Source: Daphnia pulex (Eukaryota; Arthropoda; Branchiopoda; Diplostraca; Daphniidae). Taken from it: a stretch of 64,000 nt of DNA. Below the pieces are notes generated by a model that had not been told where the DNA came from, did not search any database, and saw only the letters and a program-made list of their open reading frames with translations. Position 1 is the stretch's first letter, and every line of letters starts with the position of its first letter. The position numbers were made by a program, and so were the translations under genes. Positions 34,760 to 63,095 of the stretch are shown one piece after another. Where the stretch lies: NCBI RefSeq assembly GCF_021134715.1, contig NC_060018.1, positions 6,961,501 through 7,025,500 of the forward strand, in the 5' to 3' direction.

Positions 34760-36744
34760 ATGTAAGTGTCCATGAGTGAGACATGTAATTTGTTTTTATG
34801 GCAACTTAAACAGATTGAAATGCATGTTCTATTCTAATATTATGTACGTATTAACAGGATTTCAAAAAGGAAGTTATCAGAGTCCGATGAAAAGGAAGAA
34901 GTTGGTCATGTTCTTGCACAGTTCAAATCCGAAAGTGGCGAACTTTTGGAGTCTCCGATTGATTTACCTCTCAATATAACTACAGCAAACTTGCAGTTGA
35001 TTTGCAATGCATTCGTTAAAAAGAGTGACGATGAAGCTACTCCCTATACATTTTTTGTTCAAGATGTAGAAGTTACAAGTAACCTTGCTGCTGCTCTCAA
35101 AAACGTAGTATTGGACAGTGAAAAAGTATTGGAAATTATCTATCAACCTCAAGCTGTTTTTCAAGTCAGAGCGGTGACTAGATGCACAAGGTAAATAAAA
35201 TAATAGCATTTATTGGTCAATAACTAATATAAATACATTTAATTTTCTAGTTCTTTACCTGGACATTCAGAAGCTGTCATTTCAGTAAGTTTCAGTCCTG
35301 ATGGGAAGCAGTTGGCTAGTGGCTCAGGTGATACCACTGTCAGATTCTGGGACTTAAATACAGAAAGTCCCTTGTTCACATGTAAAGGTAAAATAGCTTT
35401 GAAATTGCAAAAAATTTCCTGTTTTAAACAGTCACGTTTTATGCCAATATTTTATTTTACAGGACACAGACATTGGGTTCTGTGCACTGCTTGGGCCCCC
35501 AATGGACAGACTTTGGCATCAGCTTGCAAAAGTGGTGAAATTCGGTTGTGGGATGCCGCAACTGGGACACAGAAAGGCAAACCACTTGTGGGTCATAAAC
35601 AGTGGGTGACCTGGCTTGTTTGGGAACCTTTTCACTTGAACCCACAGTGCAGGAAGTTAGCAAGTTCTTCCAAAGATGGTGACGTCCGGATATGGGATGT
35701 AGTTCTTGGTACTTGTTTGATTAACCTTGCTGGTCATCAACAAGGGGTATCATGTATAAGGTGGGGTGGAACAGGACTCATATATTCCGCATCTCAGGTA
35801 ATTACAGTCGTTTTCAAAATATATACGAACCAACTCAATATTTATTTACTTAAAATTAACAAAATGTGGTTACAGGATCGGACAGTAAAAGTTTGGCGAT
35901 CTGAAGACGGAATATTATGCAGGACATTGCAAGGGCATGCTCATTGGGTCAACACATTAGCGTTGAGCACCGACTACGTTCTACGAACTGGCGCTTTCGA
36001 ACCAGCAGAATTTGGGCGCACTCAGAAAACTTTGACGCCCGAAGAAGCACAGAAAAAAGCTCTGGACCGATATAATCTAGTTCAACAAGTCGGTCCCGAA
36101 CGTTTAGTGTCTGGTTCGGACGATTTCACTCTGTTTTTATGGAATCCTGAAACAGATAAAAAGCATTTAGGTGATGTTTAAGTGGTTTGGCATGTTGTGA
36201 AGTTATTTAACACATAATTCTGATTTTCTCTGTATTTTTAGCTCGTATGACGGGTCATCAACAATTGGTTAATGACGTCAAATTTTCTCCCGATTCGAGA
36301 TTGATTGCTTCAGCCTCCTTCGACAAATCGATAAAAATCTGGGATGGAAGAACAGGCAATTTCATAACGACTCTTCGAGGTCACGTACAAGCCGTCTACC
36401 AAATTTCCTGGTCGGCCGATTCTCGGCTTCTTGTTAGCGGAAGTGCAGACTCTACTTTGAAAGGTAGGGTTTGAATTAAATGCGATATTCATTTAATTTT
36501 AGAGTTGACGCAATTTGTCTTTGTATTCAATTCTAGTTTGGAACTTGAAAACAAAAAAGTTGCATTTGGACTTGCCCGGACACGGTGATGAAGTATTTGC
36601 TGTTGATTGGAGCCCTGACTCACAACGAGTTGTTTCTGGAGGACGAGATAAAGTTCTGAAGATGTAAATTTTCGTATTCTAATTTCTATTTTTCGGTTTG
36701 TTTAATAAAAAATATTATTTACTCTTGACAGATGGCGATATTAA
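34760..36744 (+). CDS. NLE1: Notchless, WD40 ribosome-assembly factor
   Basis: Eight exons (34760-34761, 34858-35190, 35251-35387, 35463-35797, 35876-36170, 36242-36463, 36537-36663, 36732-36744) give 487 aa, nearly the length of human NLE1. The start codon is split: AT at 34760-34761, then GTAAGT, and G at 34858. The N-terminal NLE ubiquitin-like domain (VLAQFKSESGELLESP and DLPLNITTANLQ) precedes eight WD40 repeats with typical endings (TVRFWD, EIRLWD, DVRIWD, TVKVW, FLWNPE, SIKIWD, VWNL, KMWRY). NLE1 is the substrate by which the AAA protein midasin/Rea1 releases factors from pre-60S particles; in flies it was found as a modifier of Notch. The last exon codes only the final residues. Confidence 0.95.
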
Positions 36745-37671: not shown

Positions 37672-39526
37672 ATGCATCAACAAGGGAAAAATATACGAAA
37701 ATGGTTTCACCTTTTCGTCTTCGTCTGTGGATTGATTGCGCATCCTTCTGAATCGATAACACCCGAAGGTAAACACACGCGTACGATGGAATTTAGTAAA
37801 ATTAAGACAATTTATTTTGTCCAAGGAATGGAATCGGGATTTTTCTCTAGCTAATCAACGTCTTATCCTACTACAGCTTATAATATATTTTTATTTATTT
37901 AGTCGAACAACTTATCCGATCGTGGTCTCCTTTGATTTGGCTACACAGCGAAGAAAGTTTTCTACCTAGCACAGTGGAGTTTTTTTTGCCCGAAGTTACA
38001 ATTCAAGATGAGGAAGGTACAATTATCCAAGACTATGTAACCCCCGAAACTCTGATTGGCGGAGAAAACAGCTCAGTGTTACACATGCAAACACGCGAAC
38101 CTTTGGGTACGACTATTTGAATAGTATTTTTATAGGTTTTAGTAATTATCTCCTATTCTATCAAATTATTCCCCATTGGGGTTGGAAATTTTACAAAGAT
38201 AGATTGCCCCGCTTGTTACAACCTGGATGTATTTTTCGGCCAGTCGATCGAGATGGGAGGCGTGCCTGTCTACACAATCTACCGCGAATACGACGATGCA
38301 TTTAATACCCTCGATGTCTCTTATTTCGCGTTTTACCCGTATAATCGTGGAAAGGATGCGTGTGTAGGTAGGGTATTTACCTATTTGATGAATATTCTTG
38401 CGTAAAAAGCTTTCCACAACTGTAAAATTCCTTATAACAAATTACAGGTGTCCCAGTTAACGGAAGTTGTGTAGGAGCAGAGAAAAATCTTGGAAATCAC
38501 GTGGGTGACTGGGAACATAATGCTCTGCGTTTTAGAGTTAGCTATTTTTACATGCGTAAAAATAAAAATAATGAAAACTAATCTTTGCAATTTCCCCTCG
38601 AAGAATGGAAAGCCGTATATGATTCACCTTAACGTTCATAGCTTCGGTGCTTATTATACTTGGAATGAAACTACAAACAATTTTCAGTTCTTTGTTGGGG
38701 AAGAAGTTCGAGCTGCGGTATGAATATCTTTTCCTTAACGTTTGTGATGCAAATGACAAATAGTTTTTTGTGGAGAGTAGGTTGGTCGGGATTACAATGA
38801 CGAACCTTCTGAAATGGAAGGAAGGTATGAACCACAGTATCCGCAAACAGTTGAACTTATTGGAACTCATCCCGTTGTGTACAGTGCTAATGGTTCACAC
38901 GGTCTCTGGGGATCAGCAGGTCTATAGATAATTTCATATTAATCTCTCGCCTTATTTTAAACGATTGTTTACCAATATTGATGTGGTATTAGATGTACAC
39001 ACTTACGTCCCTGGCCTGCCTCTTCAGGATTTCACAGACGAAGGAAAGCATATATATTCAAAAATAATCTAACAATATTGATTTTTAAAAAACTGTTAAA
39101 TGAAGTTTTTATGGACCTGCAGGAATGGCTTGGACAACGTGGGATAACCTTATTATAATTCCATGGTTGCCCAGCAATATAAGGTGTGTCCATTTTTTAT
39201 CAAATAATTTATCTTCCTACGGTTACATTCGGGTTAGTCGGGTTAAAATGATACATCATTGAGAACTAAATTATTTGTTGCAGCTATGAAGGAAATTTAA
39301 ATTGGTTAAATTTCCTCGGGGACTGGGGTAACAGCGCAGAAGGGTGTGAATACGAAATCGTGACAGGTAATAAAAAATGGAAATATGGCATAATAACATT
39401 ATCACTGAAAATTTTATTGTATTTTGTGAAATAGGTGAATGTGAACTTGGCTCGGGGCCAAGTGGTCCGAGAAGCAAAGTAGATTTCCCAGATCCGGAGC
39501 CTAAAACTTCTATGCAAAACTACTGA
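37672..39526 (+). CDS. Vps62-family (DUF946-like) secreted protein
   Basis: Ten exons (37672-37768, 37903-38106, 38203-38367, 38448-38536, 38604-38717, 38781-38919, 38993-39043, 39123-39183, 39284-39366, 39435-39526) give 364 aa. A hydrophobic segment WFHLFVFVCGLIAHP near the N-terminus looks like a signal peptide. The family blocks are SPLIWLHSEESFLPS, VSYFAFYPYNRG, HVGDWEHN, HLNVHSFG, and SHGLWGSAGLHTYV with the closing GDWGN. In the Vps62 family the GDWEH and HG motifs form a metal- or ligand-binding beta domain, whose function is poorly known. Six to eight Cys fit secretion. One intron (39044-39122) lacks a GT or GC donor; see Findings. Confidence 0.8.
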
Positions 39527-39938: not shown

Positions 39939-42900
39939 ATGGCTGAGGATATAGAAATGGAAGATGAAAACTTCCTTGAACTAATATTAAGCAATCTGTT
40001 TAGAAAAGATTCAAATGGTGAGGCAATCGACTTCTATTTAAGACGAACTCGGTTAGGTCGTCAGGACAACGTAGAAAAAGAAGAAAAGTTTAAGAAACTA
40101 AAAGAACAAATTAAGGTAGTGGAATAACATTTATATAGCTAGCATGATATTATACAAAATAATTTGTTCTTGTGAAAACAGAAATGTGGAGGACATCTTG
40201 GGGAGGAACCTAGAGGTTGTCATGCCATAGAGCTTGTGTTTCCTGAATATATTACAGACATTGATGGAATCGATTCTGACCTTTTTAAAGCTGAGTACAT
40301 AGAAGAATGCATGAAGTGTGGAGATCTTCTTGATCTGGAGCAATTCAGGTAAGTGCTTCCCATGTCAAAGACAGAATAGTTGATACAACATGATTTAATG
40401 AACAAAAATTATAGGCTCGGCAAGTCACCTTATAGTTCAATCAACATCAACATGATTATGAAAGGATATGAAACATGGGACTCTGTATCAAGAACTAGGT
40501 ATTATTGATTCAAAATAGTAAAATACCCAGTACTTAAGTGTTGCTATGAAATAATGCTCTCTTTTTCCTCGTTATTTATTATAAAGTCCTCAGAAAGGCA
40601 GAAAGCTTCCAGACTTTGGATTACCTCTCCAAACCTCTCCAGAAAAATTCAAAAGCAACAACCCAGGAAAAAAGTAATAAGGAAAATTTCCCTTTTTAAA
40701 TTGCTTGATAAATTTACTTAAGAAATCTTTTCTTATAGGAGTCGCCGTGTTGAGTATTCCATTGAAGAAGATTTGGCAATCTTGAGGTTTTTGCTGGCAA
40801 ATAACTTGTATGATAAAGTAGGAGGGAACGCTACATGGAAAATAGTTCATAGAGTAGGTTTGCTCATCAAAATTAAAGCATAAAATGAAGCTTATTTTAT
40901 TTCTTGTTTTGTAGACATTTCCTAACCATTCCTATCAGTCATTACACAACCGATTTCGCCGCTTTATCCTCCCCAACCTCAAGAAATATAAAGGTCTCAC
41001 GAATAGTGAACGTAATCTTTTCAGTCGGGTTTCGTTCAGTGGTAACTCATCCGCATCTTCACCAGATAAATCCGTAGAGGTGAGCAATCAGAAACTATCG
41101 TATTTTTCTTCAAATTTAACATATGAAAGTTCAACCACGTTTCAGATCGAGAATGGTAGTATTTCGTCATGCAGTGTGAGTCCAAAGAAACCTACGACAA
41201 TTGATAAGGTCGCTTCTGTAGATGAGCAAGAATCACCTAATATTAGTCTTTCATCTGTCAGAGAAAAAATAAATCAGACAAATGAAACGGTCATAGTCGA
41301 TGAACTCATCACGAGAGGGAAAAAACATGTTTCATCGAGCAAAGTAAGTACATTTTGTCTTAGATCGATTGGTTCTTAATCTAAACTTATTTTTGATTTT
41401 CATTCGCTTTTCAGGTGGAAGAAATGGTGCATTTACAAATAACTGAGGAAATAACCAAGGAAGAGAACAATCCTCTACAAATAACTGAGGAAATAAACAA
41501 GGAAGAGAACAATCCTCTGACCCCCAGTTGTCTGGCGATGATACTAAACAATCTTTTTCGGAAGGAATCAAACGGTGACCCCATCGAATTTTATATGCGC
41601 CGAACTCGTTCTTGTCACCATGAGAACAATTTGGAATTGGAAGGCAAATGTAGTAAATTGAAAGAACAAATTGAGGTTCGTTTTACACACGATAGATATT
41701 ATTCCAGTTTTCGAGGAATTCATTTCTTATTCACATATTGTTGTTTAGAAATGCGGAGGGAATTTCGGGGAGACGCCTCATAGCTGCCACTCCATAGAAC
41801 TTGTCTTTCCTGAAGTGATTGAGGACATCGATGAAATTGATTCTGACGTTTTTAAAGCTGAATACGTAGAAGAATGCATCAAGTGTGGAGATCTTCTTGA
41901 CTTGGAAAATTTCAGGTAAGGTTGTTATTTTAAGCCTAACGATTAATTGCGCGAAATGATAAATAATAATTGTTTTTTCTAAAAATTTGTTCAGACTGGG
42001 CAAGTCACCCTATGATGGTTCAATAAACATCAATAACATATTGAAAGGACATGATTCGTGGGAAGCTGTAACACGAACCTCTCCTCGAAAAGGCAAAAAA
42101 CTACTACATTCGGGTTCATCTTCCGAAAAAGTTGAAAGTTGCTCTTCTGGAAAAAAGTTTGCTTAGTATGTCTATTTTTAGGTATTTCTGAAATAACTAT
42201 ATGAATTATTTCTTTAGGATACTTGTTGAATACTCCATCGAAGAAGATTTGGCTATTTTAAAGTGTTTGCTTTACAAAAATTTGCATGATAAAGTTGAAC
42301 GAAACACTACTTGGAAAATAGTTAATCGTGTAAGTTTAATGGAGAGATAATTTTGATTACGGGAAATAATTGTGTAATTCAAAAATGTTTTTTTTTTCTA
42401 TTTTTGTAGGAGTTTCACAAGCACTCATTGCAATCTTTACAAAATCGATTTCGCCAGTTTATTCTTCCAAATCTCGACACCTACAAGGGTTTGACGAAAA
42501 GTGAACGCAACCTTTTTAGTCGCTCGATGAATGAAAACTCACGTTCGTCCTCGTCAGAAAGAAAGAAACTGGTATTTAGTGAAGCTTAAGTAAATTTTTT
42601 ATATTGTTTGCAAATATTCTTTTTAATGATTTGCAGTCCATGAGCCAAAATGAATCCTCAACGGCTGATGAAATTAGTGATTCTGAACCGAACGTGGTAA
42701 AACTTTTTTATTTATTTTTTCGTACCTTTTAAGTTATGAATTCCACTGTGATGGTTAGGTATCGATGCCATCACCAACAAAAGTTAAGACATCATCACCG
42801 AGGGTCATAGCAGAAAGTAGTCTTTCTGGCAGCGACTTGGAAGATTTGGAATCTGTAAAATCATTGAGGGTGAGGGAAATCACCCCAAAACGCGCTGGGT

Positions 42901-45218
42901 AAGCTGATACAGAACAAATAGAGAACAGTAGTTACATCCTCTTACTTTTAAAAATTTGTCTATAAAATATTTATATTCAGAGATTTTTCTGTCGAACTGG
43001 ATAAATGTATTCTTCAATACATAATTCTCAACAAGAGATATTCTGACATATCTGGGAGGAAACTTTGGATGGATATTCAAGGATCATGTTTCAAAAGTAA
43101 AATTTAAAAAAAATTATACACTTTGTTTGTTTGTTTGTTTTTTTAATTTAAAAAACCTATTTGCATCCCCTAGCTACAGGACAGGACTGGAAATCTATTA
43201 AGCGTCGGTTTCATGACGTTATCCTAAAAGACTTAGAATCTAAGGAGTACGCTCTCGAAAAAAACGTAATTCAGAGATTCCGTTCCAATGAGTCGTCTTC
43301 CTCAAGCGAGCGGGATAGTGATATCGACGAGGACAAATTGGTGGCTACATCTTCTGTGAAACCGCAAAAATCTGTGTATGTTTTGGTAGTCTTTAATAGG
43401 AAGACATTTAACGTAATCAGTCCTGTTCATGGTTACCAGGCCCAGGTTGTACACTTTAGAAGAAGACAAGTTAATCATTGACTACATCGCCAAGACAAAC
43501 AGATACGAGGAAGTACGAGGAAAGAAGTTATGGGTTGACATCCAAGATAAGATTTTACATAGTAGGTAATTCAATTTATTATCCTTACTCCCGTTCCTTA
43601 AAATATTTTTAAATCCTAGAGTACAATCGTTCGTGGGAATCGGCTAAAAATCGTTTTCTTCGAAACATCTTTAAAAATCTGGGCAAATTTAACCTTAGTC
43701 CAGATATTGTCAAAAAGTTTAAACACGGAGCGGTTGTTGAAAGTAAATTATTCAAATTATTTTAACCACAATGAGTCTGATGATGTTTTGATTGGATTTG
43801 TAGGAAATTTAGGTGGATGTCAAGGTGGTTTTCTTGATAAAAAAAGTGAGAGAAGCGGTTCTAGTAAAAGTATTAGCACTTCTAAAATTACAAATTTAGT
43901 TACATTCTATTAATGTCCATGTATTTTTCAGAAAAAAGAAACGTAGTTGAGGTAGAATCGGAAGAGGAAGAACTTCCTAAACATCCGGCGTTAGCCACCA
44001 ACAAAATTCCAACACCGGTAATGGATATGAACATTCGTCATGTTTGAATAGTGTAAAGTTGTGCTCAATCAATTTTTCAATTTTTATTTTTTAGTCGAAG
44101 AAGCAGAAGCGTCAACTATTTAAACAGCCTGTCATCCCTCTTCCGATTGTGTTTTCTCCTCATCCTGCTCCTTCAAGAGTTAACAAAAAAGTGTGTATTT
44201 TAGAATGATATCTAGGCCAGCTCATGGTTGAAAAAGAATTAATTATAGTATTTTTTAAAATTCTTCCGAAAGCAACTTTATATTTTTTTACTTCAAAGAC
44301 AATTTTAATTGATTTCTTTATACTCGTTTAACATATTGCCTACTATTTAAATTCATTATCAATCTATTCGTAATATAGCGACAGGTTGAATCGAAACCAA
44401 ATGAAAAGAAAGAAGATTCGGAAACTGGGGTTGACAAAATGAAGTCAAAGGAAGCTGTTTCTAATCTTGCTACATCACCAACGAAACCTGACGTCCTGAC
44501 GGAAGCCGTTCCAGCTTTAGTTACTACATCTCCTGTTCCTGAAGCTTCTTCTAATTGTCCACTACCTAAACCATTGCGTTCGGCGCCTTCCGTGCAATGT
44601 TCTGTGGTGGTCAAGCGATTGACACAACAAGAATTGGAAAAATATGGTTGCAAAATCAGTTTCACCCACAAGAATTCGTCCTCTACCCACGTTCAACCAT
44701 CGCCCACGCTTCCACCCCTTGTGATTCCTCCAGGCACACTTCCGCCAGAAAGTCCAGCAACGACCTCGCGCTTTACGGTGGAGATATCTCCTTGCCTCCT
44801 TGCCGCTAGATTGAATGCTGCCGGATCATCTGTACCATCCATTGGATCAGCAAACCGTGAAACAGTATTGCTACCATTACCATCGCCTTTGTCTCGAAAA
44901 TCCATAAGGAAAAGCGACCATCCGAGATCAACGAAATCAAAAGATGACGTCGATGAAGTGTCTTCTCCTGAGGCAACAACGAGAATGTCATCGGAGGATT
45001 CACCGCTCTCAGCAACATCTTCGACGACCACAGAAGAAAATTGTAACATCTATGACGAAATAAATAATGAAGCTGACTTAGCTACTGAGGTGGATTCATC
45101 AGTGCCAACAAATCCCCGCAATCTTCCGTTTCAGACAAAAATTCCGAACGAAAATTTAGCAAGATTGATAAAAGACGACCAGTCAAGTGATGGCTACCAT
45201 ACTCCCGTCGAGGGTTAA
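39939..45218 (+). CDS. RAP1-like (TERF2IP-like) protein with duplicated BRCT-Myb modules
   Basis: Twenty-one exons, all in phase, give about 1249 aa: 39939-40115, 40182-40348, 40415-40498, 40587-40673, 40739-40853, 40915-41343, 41415-41675, 41749-41915, 41995-42156, 42218-42329, 42410-42571, 42637-42696, 42759-42898, 42981-43096, 43174-43375, 43440-43561, 43620-43742, 43804-43845, 43932-44017, 44095-44190, 44379-45218. Module 1: a RAP1-type BRCT-like domain (LFRKDSNGEAIDFYLRR; ECMKCGDLLDLEQFRLG) and a Myb domain (VEYSIEEDLAILRFLL; NATWKIVHR; QSLHNRFRRFILP). Module 2 (about residues 388-640) repeats both. Two more Myb-like domains follow (about 708-775 and 814-885). A Ser/Pro-rich tail ends the protein. 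BRCT-Myb order and motif fit the shelterin subunit RAP1; I see no RAP1 C-terminal domain. Confidence 0.75.
41433..41516 (+). repeat. 42-bp tandem repeat in the RAP1-like gene
   Basis: Two 42-bp units at 41433-41474 and 41475-41516 code LQITEEITKEENNP and LQITEEINKEENNP. They sit in the linker between the first and second BRCT-Myb modules and are nearly identical, so recent. Confidence 0.9.
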
Positions 45219-46155
45219 CTTTGTCCTCCCAATCTAAAATATTTTCCATGAATTTTTTTTTTAAATCGGCGCTCTTCATATTTCAGAAAAATACATACTT
45301 ATAACTGCATGTTTTGAAATGTGTGACAAGGGTGAAAAGTGGAGTGAAAACGTGGAAAAAAAATTGTTTAATTGTATATATTTATTTTAAATTGAAGTAT
45401 TCACCAAGGATCAATAAATTGTTTACAGTTAGGAATTTCTCACACATCTATGTCTAATTTACTGACGTTTTATTAAATTGTGGCTTTGCTGTCGATACAT
45501 CGGTTCATTCATTAATTTGAAGTTCACTCATTGAAAAACTCGCTCATTTTCGGTCTGATTTAAGTGCAAAACGCAGACAAACTTCCGTTAGAACTGGGAA
45601 GCGGTGATGTTTCCTTATCCGAAGCTCATTAAATTATCCAATTACGAATTTACTATGGAAGTGCTTATTGCAAAATAATATAGTTGGATTGCAGCTTCCT
45701 TCTCTGCTGGTTTATTGGTCATCATGACTGCAAATTTATTGTAAAGAGCTATAAGTAATGTCAGCTCTTCCATTTTGACACATCAGGAAAATGACGATTT
45801 GACGCATTGTTGCGCTTTCAATTTTGGTTGGCTTTTATTGTGTTTTCCGCATTCTTGCATTGGGTGTGTTCCGCGGTTTTTATAAAAAGGAAATCACTCA
45901 CAGTATTTTTTGTTTGAATTCACGACCACCGATTCACTAGCGGTGCGCAATTTTATTGTCAAGAAGAAATAACGCTTGTAAAAATTTCACTTCGCAAATA
46001 GCTTGTGCACTCACCATGAAGCAATAGTAATCTAAAATCACTACATAGCCGAAATATAGAGCAATCCATCATTAATGAAAACATTCAACAAAGCAGAAGG
46101 CTTACATGTAGCAAAGTTAGTAGGTATTGGTCTCTTGAATTATGATTCTCGTAAC
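45219..46155. other. convergent spacer, RAP1-like gene / receptor gene
   Basis: About 940 bp between the 3' ends of two convergent genes. AT-rich, no coding frame of note, no RNA gene seen. Confidence 0.55.
45413..45418 (+). terminator. polyadenylation signal, RAP1-like gene
   Basis: AATAAA 195 bases after the stop codon, followed by a TGTTTACAG stretch and T-rich sequence. Confidence 0.5.
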
Positions 46156-48757
46156 TCAACCTAGGAAACTTATAACGTGGAAGGCAATAAAAGAGAAGTA
46201 AATGAACAACATGATACGTTCCAAAGCTACGCTAATGTTGGTCCAAGCTTGTTTAATCTCAATTTCTTGAGATTCGCCGTCATCGTGAACAAATTGTTGC
46301 GATACTTTCTCAGTGAGCTCCTTCGCTACTAAAAGGTTATTGCTGGTGTACTATAAAAATGATATTTAAAAAATAATAATTAGTTATCGTTATAACAAAC
46401 CAGATAAAGAAAATGAGCATTGAGCAATAGTTATTATACCTTATGTGAGACCCCAAGGATAGTCCCAATACGGCCTGATAAACAGCTTCGGATGAAAGTC
46501 GGTGGCGATACTGATTTCGAAAGCCGTGTCCAGCGTAGAGAGAGAATGGTGGATAGGATGGAAGATATCACCACGACCAAAGACCCATTATAAAAGGAAA
46601 CTATCCCAATCAAATAAAATTAAAATTAAGATTTAAATACGGCAGGATAATTTGGAATTTTAAGTGAATTACCAATCAATGGCGTATTTTCATTTCCAGC
46701 CGGAAGTACCGTTTTAAAGTACAACAGGTAACCACACAATAGGGCCAAATTGAAAACTCCCACAATCAGTTTTGCATCCATCGCCGGCGGAATGAAGAAA
46801 GTTGCCAAGATTAGAACCATGATGACTAAAGAGAATAGAATAAACATTAATGCTATGCGACATAACACAAAAGGAGTAAAGGAATCAATGTATGAACCTA
46901 TGGTAGGTATAGTGATGGTCGTCGATAGAGACCTTTGAATGGTAAACTTCATGACCAACGATTGGTAGGGTTCGGTGCAGCAGTCGTATTTTTTAACTTC
47001 AACACTAACTTGCGTGGACTTAATATTCCATTCGGACATTCTTTTGTTTATCAGTTCTCTGATATCCACCTTTAAAATAATACACAATTTGAATATGAAA
47101 TTATTCTTCGGAGTATTGTATGATGATGCGCACACTGTACCGTTGTCTCATTGTTCGTTGGACTAATGTTGATTTTAAGCGCATTGTACGTCCATGAGCC
47201 AATTTTCGTTGTACATGTGACGCTATCGAACGGATAATAAGTGGCATCAGGGGTGCAGATGGAAACCATATTGCTCATGGGAACCCAAATAACGGTACCG
47301 TCGTTACTTATTAGAACATCATTCGGTGCAAAAGAACGCTCTTTGGATAGTAATCCATAGGAATTGTAAACCTTAATTTAAAAAAAATACGTATTTTAAT
47401 ATTAAAATCTGTAGTAATTAGTTAAAGTTGAAATTAGCTTGAAAGACAAATAAAATATAAATTAACTCACCTCAAAATCAGGCTTCCATATTTTCTCATT
47501 GGGCAAGTGGATGGTCGTTAGTCCTTCATATTCCGCAGGAGACCACATGAAACGAGGATCTTTCCAACTCTACAGAAACAACCAGAAGAACAAAACAATA
47601 ATTAAGCAAATCTGTAAAGCTTCTTGTTTAGCAATCTTGTTAAATGATCATGTTAAATAATCGCATTTAAACAGAACAAAAATTACGAACAACTATGATT
47701 CTTAAAATAACTTAATTGCACAACAATTTAAACTAAAAGCTTTTGAATAATTTTCATCTTTTAAAATCTTGAATAATACCATTAAAAAAAATCCGATGGC
47801 AGAGAAGCGGGATTGCAATTCATCCTAAAATAAAAAAATCGAAAAGAAAATATTTTCATTATCTTCATTCATGTATAAAAGATTTACGAAATTAAAGCTG
47901 GTAAGTCTCATTGAAAGTTCGACATTAAGCGCATCTGTGTGATTTATCACGGGCCGGATTTGATTGTTGTAAGAGCGTAGGAGATTAACGTGAAGCTTTT
48001 CAATAACGTTGAAGTATTCAGCTTCTGCAGCAGCGGATGGCTGCCATGCTAAACAGAATACAAAATTTTAATTAGATAGAATCATTTCAGTTTCGGGATT
48101 GAAAAAATTACATTCACGCAACTTTACGGAGAACTTCAATATCGTTGTATGCTACTATTAGAAATTCTTATTCTGTATGGTAAACTAAAGACAGAACTTA
48201 GAACCGATAAAAGAGTAACCGTTAAGATTATTATTATCCGCTCACGTACTAAATACATAAATTATGTTGTTATATTTAGTACACCTGAATAGCCAGCCAA
48301 GAGACGCAGCAGTTTGAAAAGTAAAGCTTAGTTACTGCTTAATGGAATTCAAATGACCTTGACACGTGCTTATAGTTTGGAGGATCTTGGGGTTTTACCA
48401 AGGGTTTTACGTGACTGGCGGTTACATTATTTACTATACTATAGTTAACAATAAAAATATGCTTCAATTGCAAAATGACGCTTCATCTATCTGCTAGTTA
48501 TTACTTAAATACTTTTTTTTCAGCGCTGATAATAGGAGTGTGGGCCTCAAAAAGTTAAAACCGTGCCGAGCGATTTTTTTTTTGTCTTTTTAAATCTACC
48601 AAAATATTAGGCTGTCCTTATAGAAATGACAAAATACACGTAAAGTGGTACTTAAATATCAATTTTGTGGAATTACTTTCAGTAAGGTGAAGCTATACTT
48701 ACTTAAAACAACGGCGAGGAATAGGCAGTGATTGATAAAGAATAGCACACGAGACAT
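46156..48757 (-). CDS. nicotinic acetylcholine receptor-like subunit
   Basis: Eight exons (48703-48757, 47888-48048, 47780-47824, 47471-47569, 47141-47371, 46673-47069, 46440-46600, 46156-46350) give 447 aa. A signal peptide (FFINHCLFLAVVLS) is followed by the ligand-binding domain with the LMSWKDPRFMW loop, IWKPDFE (WxPD motif), the 13-residue Cys-loop starting CTPDATYYPF and the vicinal cysteines YDCCTEPY of an alpha-type C loop. Four membrane helices follow: M1 (CRIALMFILFSLVIMVLIL), M2 (LIVGVFNLALLCGYLLYF), M3 (VVVISSILSTILSL) and M4 (IMLFIYFSFIAFHVISFL). The M3-M4 loop is short. The M2 border reads AMDAK rather than the usual GEK. A divergent member of the arthropod nAChR-like group; ligand unknown. 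Confidence 0.85.
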
Positions 48758-49769: not shown

Positions 49770-52174
49770 TCATTCAACCGAGGAAAAGTTCGTGGGAGGT
49801 AGATCGATAGTGTGCGATTCATTGCCAAATATCAGTCTTAATCGTTTAGTGGTCGGCAACACTCCCATCCGCGACGGTTCGGCGGCTACTGAAGGGGACC
49901 TACGTCTTTGTGTCCGACGCGTTCGGCTTTTGTGAGGTGGTTCCAGTTCGTTTTCAGGTTCCATTTCCAATCCTTCAACTCGAAGGACTTCATATACTGG
50001 ATGGATCATATTCTGTTGATGCAGGTGGCTACCACCCATACTACTACCAGATTCAATGACTTCGTCTAAAACAGGACTGCGCTTCATCCTAAGCGTCAGT
50101 TTGAGACGTCCGCCTGGTGACGTCATCAACGCAGGCTGGTGAGATGCAAGTTCACGAGAAGATGGCGGAGGCGGAGTAGCAGAGCGTTCTTTTCTCACCT
50201 CGGCGGGAATTTCTTTTTCTAATGCTGGCAAACTTTCCGTTTGGACTCCATTTTCGTGTTCGATATCGTTGAATTCGTAAACGTCACTCCCGCGACTGAC
50301 GCCTTCTGCTTCCGGCGTGGCAACAGGGGAGCTTACTGCAGATGATTCGGTTGGTGATGCAGTTTCAAGAGTTTTCTTGTTTCTTAAACGCATTCCAGAT
50401 CGTGCACCATCGTTACTAGCAGCGTTACTAACAGGTTCAGAATCCGCCACAACGGTAGGTTGAACCACATCAGCTGGAGCACTACGAACCGTGCGGGAAC
50501 GTAGGCTTCTCACTGTTCCAGTAGTTGGTTTCTTATCATCAACGCTGACACTAGTAACATTTTGATGCGTAGTACTTGCTATACTACTTGTTCCATTAAC
50601 TTCCTTTCCAGTTTGTAATCGTCGACGACGTTTGGCACCTACACGTGTGGTGACAGGAACTTTCGTGTCGTGGCGGCTACTAGTACTGCTACTGCTGCCA
50701 GCACTCTCTTCGCTGTTGGTTTTTCCCTCGTTACACATAGCGTAACCTTGAGCAACCAATAATTCAGCATCGTACCTGATGACCAGTAAAAAAGATTACA
50801 GTAAAACACAGTAGAAAATAATAAATTCTTTCACTAAAACTTTAAACATACCTGGTGAGGCCTTTTCGCCGGAGCTCTTTTACGTCTAGAGGTCTGGACA
50901 CAGTCTCTCTATCTTCTAATCGTACGGGAGTAGTTGCATTTCGAGAAGATGAGGAGCGACTCGTTGCTGTCGCCGCCGGCTCTTTGTCCGTCTGCTTTTT
51001 CACACGACTCAATCTTAAATGTGTTTCACGGAGGCGGTAACGCTCTTCTTTAGTGGCAGCTTCGGGAGTGTTTTTCTTATTTTTAGCAAACGCACCAGTC
51101 CCACGCCGTTCGCAAGTTTCACATTCACAGAAGCAGTTGTTGTCACCAAAAAAATCTTCGCCATAAAAACAAGTGATCTCTTCACCAGCCTCAATATCTC
51201 GCAATATTCGAACACAGGCAGTTCCACGGCCAGTGGCAACAAACTATCGAGAAAGAAATATACACAAAATTAAACATGACACATTAAAGCTGACCGAATT
51301 GCTAATTAATGGATAAAACTTGAAACCTTGCAGTTAGAACGACAATCATGATTGATAAATGCTGCTGGTCCAAGCCAAAGTTGTGCACAATTTTTGCGAC
51401 AACTGTACATTACAGAAAAATCATTTTTTCCAGGGTGCAATAGTTGAGCTTCTTCATCAGGACTCAATTCAGCTATACATCCCATTAATAAAGTAATCTG
51501 CTCATTTTTATACCTAAAATACAAAGACCATTATTTTAAGATTTTTTTCTCATTGTTATTCTACAAAATATAATATTTTTGAAATTAATAGAGAACTTGC
51601 CACTTTTTTGTAGTGCAAAGTTTTGCTCCCTTTTGTCCCTCCATAGAGTATCTGTAACAAGCTTGAATAGTGAAGCCTGCTGATTCATGGAACATCCCCA
51701 AATATCGAACAATCTAAAAATTGAGTAGCTTATTAAATGGTAGCCAACAAAATTTTTTACTGATTAAAAGTCTTACATGTTCTTTGACATTCATTTGTTG
51801 TTGCTTGTTCTTGTTAGAAAGGAAATTCCAGACATAATCACTAGATGTCAGTTGCTTGTAAGCTTTCTCATAATCTTGATGTTCAATGAAATCTATGACA
51901 GCTTGCTTTAATTCTTCTCTGTTGGCTTTGGGTGGCCTATAACTATATTACAAATGGGATAAATTGATTGAAAAAGCAATTTCAAAACACCTTCACATTA
52001 ACATAAAAGAGAGAGAGAGACAAACCGGAGATTCATCTTGTGAGTGGAGAAACCAAGAAAAGGGTCCAGAACAAGTCCAGTAGCCAAGTCATCATTCTCT
52101 GAAAGCTCTTTAGGAGTCATGCCAGATCCTTGTGAGCGAAACGCTGCTCGATTGTTTAGACTCTGGATCACCAT
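49770..52174 (-). CDS. Suv4-20: histone H4-K20 methyltransferase Suv4-20
   Basis: Six exons (52026-52174, 51777-51942, 51601-51713, 51327-51513, 50852-51243, 49770-50775) give 670 aa. The N-terminus has the family block [20 protein letters not shown]. The SET domain (about 95-235) shows [43 protein letters not shown], and [12 protein letters not shown]; the post-SET zinc site is [12 protein letters not shown]. The C-terminal part is Ser/Arg-rich and carries [15 protein letters not shown] and KRLRLIFGN, both known in the family. The enzyme di- and tri-methylates H4K20 at heterochromatin. Intron 3 starts with GC (GCAAGT). The start codon follows a splice acceptor by one base, so there is a 5' UTR exon upstream (donor at about 52360). 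Divergent from SPT2. Confidence 0.95.
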
Positions 52175-57428: not shown

Positions 57429-59968
57429 ATGTCGCATCGTTCAGTTCAAGTTATGATATTGGCAAGTTGGATTTTCAGTGGTGCCAGTGCATCTCCAGTC
57501 TATGAACTCGGTTGGTATTTTCAATGAAACACCTTTGTAATGGCACGGTATACCTATGCAAAAACACTGTCATACTCTCTAAACCAATTTTTTGTGCTGA
57601 AATGAGAGGTTCATCAAATATCAAATTGCGCCACTTTAACCGGTTGCGGTTGAACTAGACCCACTTCTATTCTACCGTATGCCAAGTTTACCACACACCG
57701 TTACTTATTATTCAAATTTTGATTTTTCTCAGGTAATATGAGCAACCTCACAATGGATAATATCGAAAGAAATTCGCAAATATCTGTTGGCCGCGCTTTC
57801 CCGTCGGTGTCAGACATCAACCCGGAAGTCGGAACGGATTTTACCCAAGTGACGTGGGCTCATGCAGTAGACAACCGAAAGAAGCTGAGACGTGCGCTAA
57901 GAGGTAATAAGTAGTTGTCGAGCTCAAACAATTGATTAATGATGCATGCTATGCAAATTAGATCTTGGCCATCCCGTCATTCTAGTTCTTTATTCTTCTA
58001 ATAATAGTCTGCACATATTCAAAAAAAAAAGCACCTTGAATTCCTATCCAGTCCAAAAATGTCCCGCTCCATAGTTTTTTCTCATTGCGCAATTTCTTTG
58101 TATACGTATATGGGGAGGGGGGCGATTCTTGTTCAGTGGTCAGCCTGACGCTTTCTGAATTAACAAACAACTAAATATATAGTCCCTTAAGAAATACCAA
58201 TTAATACGCGACTCGAGGCGATGATGGTCATCGCAGACTATTATTGGACATTGTTCTCTGTGACTGTGAGTTCTTTACAGCACCGATAAAACGAAATCCC
58301 TTTTCCGGAAAGCAGTTGAGTTTATCTTCTTTTGTGAGCTGACGTGAGAACGGAATGCCTAGCTGGTCATACACGAGGTATACAATCATCACCACGGGGC
58401 TTTGGGCTTTCAAAGTTGACCTGTGTTCACCGAAATCTTTGACAGACTCACATTTTCTTGATTTATCCTAATTTATCCTCTGAAGCGTATTTTTGCCCAG
58501 GATGGAAATTCAGTTGGGAAACTGCCAAACCCTATCTGTTTTCGATTCCTGAGCTATTTTCGCAGTTGATAATCGGAATGTTTTTATTTATTTTTTTCAA
58601 AATTCTTGAAATTGATTAACACAATTTTATTTCCTGGTTGACACAAGGCAGTGCAATGATGCTTGAAGCAGACGTTTCGCTGGGAAAGTTGAAAAGCGAC
58701 CCGCACTCTGAAGACAGGCCAATTATGGCACACCCGCCAATTTCGGCAAGTGACTTGTCGCTTGAAGACTTTTTAGGTAACGTTTTATTTCATATCTCTC
58801 TTTATTTAAAAATAAAAACGAAGCGCAATAACAAGATGTTTAACACATATGGTGTTATTTTTACCAATAAGCGCGTAAATTGTTTAGTGTATTAATGATT
58901 GAACTTAATTTTTTCCACCTGTCGGATTGATGCTAACAGACGAAGTCCTAGACGAAGCCTATTACAAGGGAATCAAATTGGATTTTAAAAGTGTTGAAGT
59001 ACTCGAACGAGCTCTCCAGATAGTCAAAACGAGAGAACATAAAGTAAGCCATTATTGCTGATAGCTATAATAATTCCAAGTTAATTAATGAATTTTCTTT
59101 AATAATTTAAACTATACTAGATCCGGGTACCTCTTTGGTTAAACGCTGACATTATCAAAGGACCAGTGGATTCTACTTCAAATCCTATAGACGCCCAGTT
59201 ATTTCTGAGCCTTACCAAATACTACTTTCCAACTGCAGTCATCAGCGCGGGCTGGACGACAAAGTAAGTATTGCATCATTTTATGAGCTTAGCTGGAAAA
59301 GTATAAATTAATTACTTGGTTGTACAATAACTAGACTCGCCAAAGAAGGTTATTATACTCTTGATCAATGTCGGAATATGAGAGACGCCCTAATAGCAGC
59401 TCAAGTAACTGCCCCAGTAACATTTCCCGTTCGAGCCGGACTCATAGCAAATTTGGAATCTCGACAGAATATTTTATGGCTTCTGAGAGAAGTATGTTCG
59501 CAATTTGCATAACATATTAACGATACATTTAATCAATGGCGATCTTTTTTTAAAAATAATGCCTAACTTTGTCATTTGTTGTGTTTAGATACCGGGAAGT
59601 ACAGTGACAATTTGGAGTTCCTATGGCGACGAAGTTGATGTATTTGGGCTGTTGGATTTCATAGACGCGATCGGCAAAGAGTTCATTGTAAGGAATAGAT
59701 ATTTAAAATAGTTGTGTTTTCAATAAGTAACTCTGATAATGACGATGGTGGTGGTTTCATTTTTCTGCAGTACATCGACGTCCACAGCGGATTGCGTTGT
59801 CGAATGTCCCGTTACAGAGCAGCGTACTCGATGGGTGAATATCTTTTGGGTTTTGGGCGAAATAATGGACGAACTTCGTCTAATCCAAGTTTTTTTGCTT
59901 TGCTGACGTATTTGTCGTGCGCGACTTCATTCCTTCCATGGAACATCAATTCGCATAACCAGCAATAG
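57429..59968 (+). CDS. FAM151 / menorin-like protein, copy 1
   Basis: Eight exons (57429-57510, 57733-57903, 58648-58776, 58940-59043, 59121-59263, 59335-59491, 59589-59687, 59771-59968) give 360 aa. The N-terminus has a signal-type segment (VMILASWIFSGASASPV). The FAM151 domain follows with MMLEADVSLG, IMAHPPIS, YKGIKLDFKS, VPLWLNADIIKGP, AVISAGWTT, TFPVRAGL and IYIDVHSG. The fold resembles glycerophosphodiester phosphodiesterase-type TIM barrels, with the Glu-Ala-Asp and Lys-Leu-Asp residues in the catalytic places. Menorin in C. elegans shapes dendrites from the skin. The last 45 residues, after IYIDVHSG, are copy-specific and include a hydrophobic segment (FALLTYLSCATSFL), possibly a membrane or GPI signal. 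Confidence 0.87.
57904..58647 (+). other. long intron of FAM151 copy 1
   Basis: 744 bp between the signal-bearing exons and the FAM151 domain, much longer than other introns of the gene. AT-rich, with minus-strand frames at 57982-58170 and 58228-58413 that look random. It lies at the same place as the 261-bp intron of copy 2. Confidence 0.6.
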
Positions 59969-60941: not shown

Positions 60942-63095
60942 ATGTCGCGCTACCAATGCTCAAGTGTCACTTTTATTTGCCTGCCTTCCGTGTTGTCGAT
61001 CAAAGCGGTTGGTTGGACAATGATTTTGTTGTTTATTACTCAAGTCAAAAGCGCATCATACATCCACGGCAACGACGGAGTGACAATACCGTCAGTGGCC
61101 AAATTCTTTCCTCAAATACAATCGGATCTTTCGCGAGTCAAGTGGGGACATGGAGTCAACAGTAAGGCCCAGCTCAGCCAGACACTTCAAGGTGGGTATT
61201 TAATCATTTATTACTAATGATAACTCACTCAAAATCGCAAGTTAAATGGAAGAATTTAGGGAAATCCAAACCTAACACAATTTTTAATCATTTAAAAATT
61301 TAATTTGATTAAATAAAAACTAATTTGTGAAACTAATGAAATGTTAGTAGCGAAACGATGATTTTATTCGGTAAAGTTTCCGATTTTAGATTTCACGCGA
61401 TATTTGATGATTATAAAATTTGGAAAAAATTTTAAACGTATTTTGAAAATAGGAACTGACATGATGATTGAAGCGGATGTGTCTATGGGGATCGTAACGG
61501 GTCGCGAAGGAAAGTTTCTGCCAATCATGGCTCATCCGCCTTTTAAATCATCGGATTTGAGTTTAGAAGAATTTCTTGACACTACGCTGAGCAGCAGAAC
61601 GCCAAAGGGAATCAAGCTAGATTTCAAAGACATGGAAGCAGTCGAGTTATCACTCAGGACCATAAAAACGCGAGCTAACAAGGTATTATTTATATGTGCC
61701 GATTTATTGTCTGACAATCAAACGGCCAAATTTTATTCGTTATTATACTGACTCAGCACGGTAACTTTTATTGACTCACAAAGATTTACGCACCACTTTG
61801 GCTAAACGCGGACATTATCCAGGGGCCCGTCAATGCAACCACAAAGCCACTGGGTGAGAATTTCAACAGCCAGTACTTAAGCGCGTTTAGAAATAATTCA
61901 TTTCATTTTTACAATTCCAATTTCACTTTACATTTATTCTACTTTTCTGATTTCTCTTAAAAGCCCATGACACTGGACGTTTCGGTATATTTATAATGTT
62001 GTATAGTACAAGTGATTTCTAAATTGTAGATATTCATCATTTTCAAGAATAAAATGTTTTTTTTTTCTTTTTCAGATGCAAGGCGATTTCTGAATCTGAC
62101 AAAGAGCTACTTTCCTGATGCTGTTCTCTCCGTTGGATGGACAACCAGGTTTATTTCTTCGAATTTATTATTTATTTTTTTTTCTAGTTCCACTTAATCG
62201 TCACGCTAACTTTCCTTTCGCCTAAAAGGTATGGTCCTGATGTGTCTTCATGGCCGCTGCAGATCATCAACGAAGGTTCGTACACAATGAACCACATGAT
62301 CCAACTGCGTGATGCTCTCAGAGCGGCTCAAATCCGCCAGCCGGTGACCTTTCCCATTCGGGCTGGTTTATGTACCACGCCAGAGTCTCAGCGCAGCATT
62401 ATATGGTTACTGGAACAGGTACGCGACACTATATCCAATTCGATATAACAATATTTTTTAAAGCTGAATTTGACTTCTAACAATCAAACGTGGTCTTGCA
62501 TTTTAATATTGTGACTTGGTGCATGCAACGCATATTTGTATATGGCTATCTATAGTAGCTTTCAGTCACGGCCAAGCTGCCCATAAGGTTAGTGGGGCAA
62601 CATATGAGATGAATACCGTACATGCATAGTAATCATCATGAAATCCTGCCAAACTCTAACTTTCTCTCTAACGTGATTTGAAATAAGCCAGCCAAAGGGA
62701 AAGGATAATCTGATCCAAGGCAGCTAGTGCGTACCTATACTACCGTACCCTGTCCCAGTTCTTTTGTTTTGATTTCGATGGCAATCAGCACATCATTTCT
62801 TTTACCGCTTTCTCTGTTCTTGAGTTTAAACCTGATTATGCCAAAGTGATTACATATTAAATGTTAAATCACGCGAAAAATGTAAATTTCTCATTTCGAC
62901 GAATATGGTATGATGAGATAACGAGTCCTTTTATAGGTTGAAGACAGCACGCTGACCATTTGGAGTGGACCGTTCGACACTGTCGACGTGCCCGGACTAA
63001 TGAAACTCATTAAACACGTTGGCACGAAAAGAATTTACATCGACGTCTCCAGCGGCCTCCTCTGTGAAATTCAGCATTTCAACGATCGTTATTAG
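60942..63095 (+). CDS. FAM151 / menorin-like protein, copy 2
   Basis: Six exons (60942-61191, 61453-61682, 61784-61853, 62076-62148, 62229-62418, 62937-63095) give 323 aa from Met at 60942. A later in-frame Met at 61020 would start a compact signal peptide MILLFITQVKSAS and may be the true start. The domain has MMIEADVSMG, IMAHPPFK, PKGIKLDFKD, APLWLNADIIQGP, AVLSVGWTT, TFPIRAGL and IYIDVSSG. Compared with copy 1 it keeps an insertion after GWTTR (YGPDVSSWPLQI) and ends soon after the last strand, without the extra tail. Intron positions at the domain start and before the AP/VPLWLNADI block are shared, so the two genes are a tandem duplication. Confidence 0.87.

Follow-up and report, generated by a model that had tools for sequence, protein, structure and literature searches.

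In mammals, TRF2 carries the shelterin subunit RAP1 via the RCT, and the RAP1 BRCT domain on KU70 blocks LIG4, as described in the excerpted text of PMC12221994. According to the same excerpts, the Myb domain of mammalian RAP1 contacts the adjoining 10 bp through an arm, R133, this arm is required for the RAP1 footprint beside DNA-PK, and RAP1 fused to a TTAGGG-binding domain forms the footprint without TRF2. Budding yeast Rap1, in contrast, uses two Mybs to contact duplex telomere DNA directly (excerpted text of PMC4416457). RAP1 thus reaches chromosome ends directly in budding yeast and through TRF2 in mammals.

The gene studied here lies at 39939..45218 on the + strand of the window, the whole 64,000-nt stretch of DNA that was analysed. 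Joining its 21 exons in a hand-drawn splice model yields an open protein of 1255 aa, in which Pfam finds the domain order BRCT-Myb-BRCT-Myb-Myb-Myb. Its coding model, domains and flanking signal are as follows.

39939..45218, + strand: complete coding model of 1255 aa in 21 exons (splice model; GT-AG in 20/20 introns)
39975..40498, + strand: BRCT copy 1, exons 1-3, aa ~13-142 (BRCT_2 4.2e-07, 30.6 bits)
40746..40995, + strand: Myb 1, exons 5-6, aa 175-237 (Myb_Rap1 9.1e-10, 39.3 bits)
41344..41414, + strand: intron 6, between modules 1 and 2 (71 nt, GTAAGT...TTTTCAG; contains an in-frame stop but no AATAAA)
41532..42076, + strand: BRCT copy 2, exons 7-9, aa 393-523 (BRCT_2 5e-08, 33.6 bits)
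42222..42490, + strand: Myb 2, exons 10-11, aa 552-614 (Myb_Rap1 9e-05, 23.3 bits)
42981..43247, + strand: Myb 3, exons 14-15, aa ~708-771 (Myb_Rap1 0.015, 16.2 bits)
43441..43693, + strand: Myb 4, exons 16-17, aa 815-879 (Myb_Rap1 7.6e-09, 36.3 bits)
43694..45215, + strand: C-terminal tail, from the last part of exon 17 through exon 21 (RCT not detected)
45413..45418, + strand: candidate polyadenylation signal AATAAA, 3' of the stop (pattern scan)

Similar to human and vertebrate RAP1 (TERF2IP), the protein begins with an N-terminal BRCT followed by a Rap1-type Myb, and human RAP1 is its sole clear relative in the PDB. However, the domain counts differ: human RAP1 carries a single BRCT, a single Myb and an RCT, against two, four and none detected, respectively, in the window protein. 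Budding yeast Rap1 likewise combines a BRCT with more than one Myb, and the yeast Myb pair contacts duplex DNA directly; it differs in having one BRCT, two Mybs and an RCT (excerpted text of PMC4416457). The C. elegans proteins TEBP-1 and TEBP-2 resemble the window protein in carrying several RAP1-like Myb/homeodomains each, the third of which binds telomeric DNA, whereas a BRCT is mentioned 0 times in the main text of PMC8113555. The artificial Teb1-RAP1 fusion is comparable in that an added domain tethers RAP1 to duplex telomere DNA and gives a TRF2-free footprint, but it is engineered, joining the DNA-binding domain of fission yeast Teb1 to human RAP1 with its one BRCT and one Myb (excerpted text of PMC12221994).

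Pfam matched the joined protein to Myb_Rap1 (PF08914) with an E-value of 3e-25 in four stretches and to BRCT_2 (PF16589) with 8.8e-15 in two, stretches being listed at a lenient threshold of E<=5 each. When single cut-outs were searched, both BRCTs, Myb 1 and Myb 4 scored above the curated cut-offs (27.3 bits for BRCT_2 and 27.1 bits for Myb_Rap1), and Myb 2 and Myb 3 below. The score of Myb 3 against Myb 1, 2 or 4 or the human Myb was reached by 0 of 500 shuffles. When Myb 2 was compared with just the human Myb, 1 of 500 shuffles reached the score; with this one reservation, the shuffle tests lead us to reject chance similarity. In searches of 177,635 PDB sequences, human RAP1 was the top match of the joined protein (E 3.1e-04; next non-RAP1 match 0.82), of the two-module profile (3.5e-05; next 0.28) and of the four-Myb profile (1fex, 3.1e-07; next 0.072), the profiles being alignments of the protein's own repeats. 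Yeast RAP1 entries also appeared weakly among the four-Myb matches (E 2.2-3.1), and none of the 9 matches of this profile at E<=10 was a TEBP chain, which would bear on a relation to TEBP only if the PDB copy searched includes a TEBP structure. Searched by itself at E<=10, BRCT 1 matched a single entry, that of the human RAP1 BRCT, with an E-value of 0.26 that is not significant on its own. The identical Pfam search of human RAP1 recovered Myb_Rap1, BRCT_2 and Rap1_C in a single stretch each, the layout that a preliminary description of the locus, made from the sequence alone, had given for animal RAP1 proteins. That description had also proposed two BRCT-plus-Myb modules in RAP1 order with two further Myb-like domains 3' of them. 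The curated families and the PDB comparisons bear out both the RAP1-type assignment and this arrangement in the Pfam run on the joined protein that the description had called for, Myb 3 scoring below the cut-off when taken alone. On these comparisons, the gene product descends from the shelterin subunit RAP1, specifically from its N-terminal half with the BRCT and the Myb. Because no RCT was detected, we class it as RAP1-derived and not as canonical RAP1.

Alignment of the two BRCT-Myb copies establishes an internal duplication at the sequence level. The copies share 158 of 231 aligned residues (68%), with an alignment score of 780 against a mean of 34.9 and a maximum of 59 in 200 shuffles, in keeping with the long near-identical protein stretches described earlier; Myb 1 and Myb 2 by themselves are identical at 50 of 68 aligned positions. 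The claim that the copies have common intron positions and exon sizes holds for exons 2 and 8 (167 nt each, phases 0 and 2 in both) and for exons 5 and 10 (115 and 112 nt, phases 2 and 0 in both), but copy 1 is interrupted by one additional intron, which separates exons 3 and 4 and has no counterpart in copy 2. Exons 6 and 11 have a matching start in phase 0. Three methods gave a dN of 0.19-0.21 and a dS of 0.74-2.07 between the copies, and 32 of the 52 comparable fourfold sites agree. Therefore, the duplication looks old and both copies show constraint at the protein level, and the coding dS disfavours a recent duplication. When the four pairs of corresponding introns were compared, the observed score was reached by 115, 28, 6 and 0 of 300 shuffles each, such that two pairs are no better than chance and two are better. 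Shared splice signals and T-rich runs may account for the latter, and a degree of ancient homology between the introns, or an earlier gene conversion between the modules, might also contribute. Mybs 3 and 4 have the same residue at 23 of 58 aligned positions and share intron phases 2 and 1, so a second, tandem duplication likely lies behind them. Their inner intron is offset by about 4 nt relative to its counterpart in Mybs 1 and 2, as judged by eye and depending on gap placement.

The C-terminal tail was searched for an RCT in several ways. Pfam Rap1_C, which detects the human RCT at 5e-15 as a positive control, had no match at E<=5 in the joined protein, in the last exon or in the parts of the three + strand frames covered by a partial search of 43700-46500, in agreement with the preliminary description, in which no RCT had been visible. 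No Pfam family was found in the last exon. Direct alignment to the human RCT was at shuffle level, its score being reached by 178 of 500 shuffles for the tail and by 125 of 200 for the whole protein. An AlphaFold run on the last exon alone gave a mean pLDDT of 42.9, with helices only at 83-88 and 139-147; as a single-sequence prediction of low confidence it is weak evidence, compatible with a fold that forms, for instance, on binding. The long tail is probably disordered, and an RCT diverged beneath the detection limit is possible within it. The protein would then be a conventional RAP1 that depends on TRF, with an RCT too diverged for sequence detection and a duplication that does no more than add avidity. 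The length of the tail and the AlphaFold result leave room for this alternative, whereas the sensitivity of Rap1_C on the human protein and the shuffle-level alignment speak against it, and we regard it as somewhat unlikely.

The residues and charges bearing on DNA and KU contact were also compared with human RAP1. R175 of Myb 1 aligns opposite R133, for which a counterpart is missing by eye from Mybs 2, 3 and 4. Myb 1 and Myb 4 have the highest net positive charge (+6 each, compared with +2 for each of Mybs 2 and 3 and +3 for the human fragment). These features, the charge of Mybs 1 and 4 and the R133 equivalent of Myb 1, favour direct DNA binding. Both BRCTs are acidic overall, with net charges of -5 and -11. 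Among the KU-contact residues K39, R40 and R55, just R40 aligns with a basic residue of BRCT 1, beside an uncertain gap, and the alignment of BRCT 2 to human RAP1 stops short of all three positions. The KU-contact residues thus seem mostly not kept. The basic patch retained at one of three positions in BRCT 1, the acidic BRCTs and the three Mybs unmatched at R133 count against a KU step.

Based on these comparisons, we propose, with about even confidence, that the protein is a duplicated, self-bound multi-Myb derivative of RAP1 that carries no detected RCT and presents two BRCT heads to partners, possibly including KU. DNA binding, telomere location and BRCT partners are the inferred parts of this best explanation. 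Internal duplications would have given rise, from the N-terminal half of RAP1, to the BRCT-Myb-BRCT-Myb-Myb-Myb order with its long tail. Several Mybs would most likely hold the protein directly on duplex, probably telomeric, DNA, much as two Mybs do for yeast Rap1; direct binding seems most likely because the RAP1 head is doubled, extra Mybs are present and an RCT is undetected. This direct contact would replace delivery through the TRF2-RCT contact. The two BRCT domains might display partner-binding surfaces, possibly to KU, and such a BRCT-KU contact might keep end joining off chromosome ends.

Four Mybs and a disordered tail would also suit a transcription factor, and yeast Rap1 also acts as a general transcription factor (excerpted text of PMC9498494). 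A RAP1 descendant might have been co-opted for work away from telomeres, for example in transcription control. However, nothing found is specific to such a job, and the constraint on both copies indicates that they are used, not for which purpose; we consider this reading unlikely. The self-bound RAP1 derivative might also take a more elaborate form, that of a double-headed and self-sufficient end protector. In this form, added Mybs with direct reading of duplex telomere DNA would have taken the place of a lost TRF-binding RCT, the two BRCT-Myb heads of a single chain could block end joining at two KU-bound ends simultaneously, and one polypeptide would do the work of TRF2 plus RAP1. We think this version quite doubtful.

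The search of a portion of the open-access literature turned up no RAP1 described as having two BRCTs and four Mybs, so that, as far as this portion goes, the layout is undescribed, as the preliminary description had supposed. Searches with the two-module alignment gave 599 pattern matches in viral contigs and 287 in prokaryote genome contigs, with 0 relatives among either, as expected for an animal gene, the animal origin being suggested by the gene content. Short introns, GC content and gene content together are reminiscent of a branchiopod crustacean such as Daphnia. An animal RAP1 relative with four Mybs and no detected RCT would offer a natural experiment on how the direct and the TRF2-mediated route are exchanged for one another, and would test whether TRF2 is required in the first place for RAP1 to block end joining. 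In a 2015 study of Daphnia telomeres, the POT1 homologue is the only Daphnia shelterin part named in the excerpted text (PMC4427308). If the locus is crustacean, its product would be a candidate duplex telomere protein to set beside that homologue.

The gene model was assembled manually, guided by splice signals and open frames. The start ATG at 39939 and the stop TAA ending at 45218 agree with the earlier coordinates. All 20 introns are GT-AG; 19 of them measure 58-88 nt and the last 188 nt, with a median of 67 nt. In a retention test, 18 of the 20 introns contained an in-frame stop, and the remaining two, of 73 and 64 nt, would cause a frameshift. The GC content is 0.406 in exons and 0.256 in introns, the window averaging about 0.39. 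Intron 6, across which the two modules are linked, resembles the other introns in length and splice sites and upholds the earlier view of a single gene. Further AATAAA motifs lie within the coding model, one of them at 41268 in exon 6 by pattern scan, and early polyadenylation there is conceivable. That two neighbouring RAP1-like genes were wrongly merged is highly improbable: an in-frame ATG lies close to the exon 7 start (by eye) and exon 6 holds the AATAAA just mentioned, but the gap between exons 6 and 7 is just 71 nt with canonical splice sites and the reading frame stays open across 21 exons.

Two smaller features of these exons were seen by eye. The stretch 41081-41146 within exon 6 is 66 nt long, open and a multiple of three, starts with GTGAGC and ends with TTTCAG, and could be an optional intron. 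Exon 7 contains a near-perfect 42-nt direct repeat at 41433-41516, immediately 5' of BRCT copy 2, whose copies encode LQITEEI(T/N)KEENNP.

Across the window, tRNA and Rfam searches had no matches, and the doubled telomere words TTAGG and TTAGGG (both strands) and TTAGGC (one strand) were absent. The upstream neighbour at 38000-39526 looks like what we take to be a zinc carboxypeptidase, one piece of which (38136-38402) had no Pfam match. Downstream on the - strand, 46629-47377 looks like a divergent Cys-loop receptor, and its part 46629-47147 had no Pfam match. A SET-domain end at 50845-51243 on the - strand (Pfam SET 6.3e-04, 20.6 bits, just under the 22.4 cut-off) resembles, we presume, SUV4-20. 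A WD40 protein lies at 34838-36471, with WD40 repeats by Pfam at 35243-36178, and it looks like Notchless (NLE1). A Menorin (FAM151) domain was found at 61362-61748 (Pfam 4.8e-26), and a similar stretch was seen by eye near 58620.
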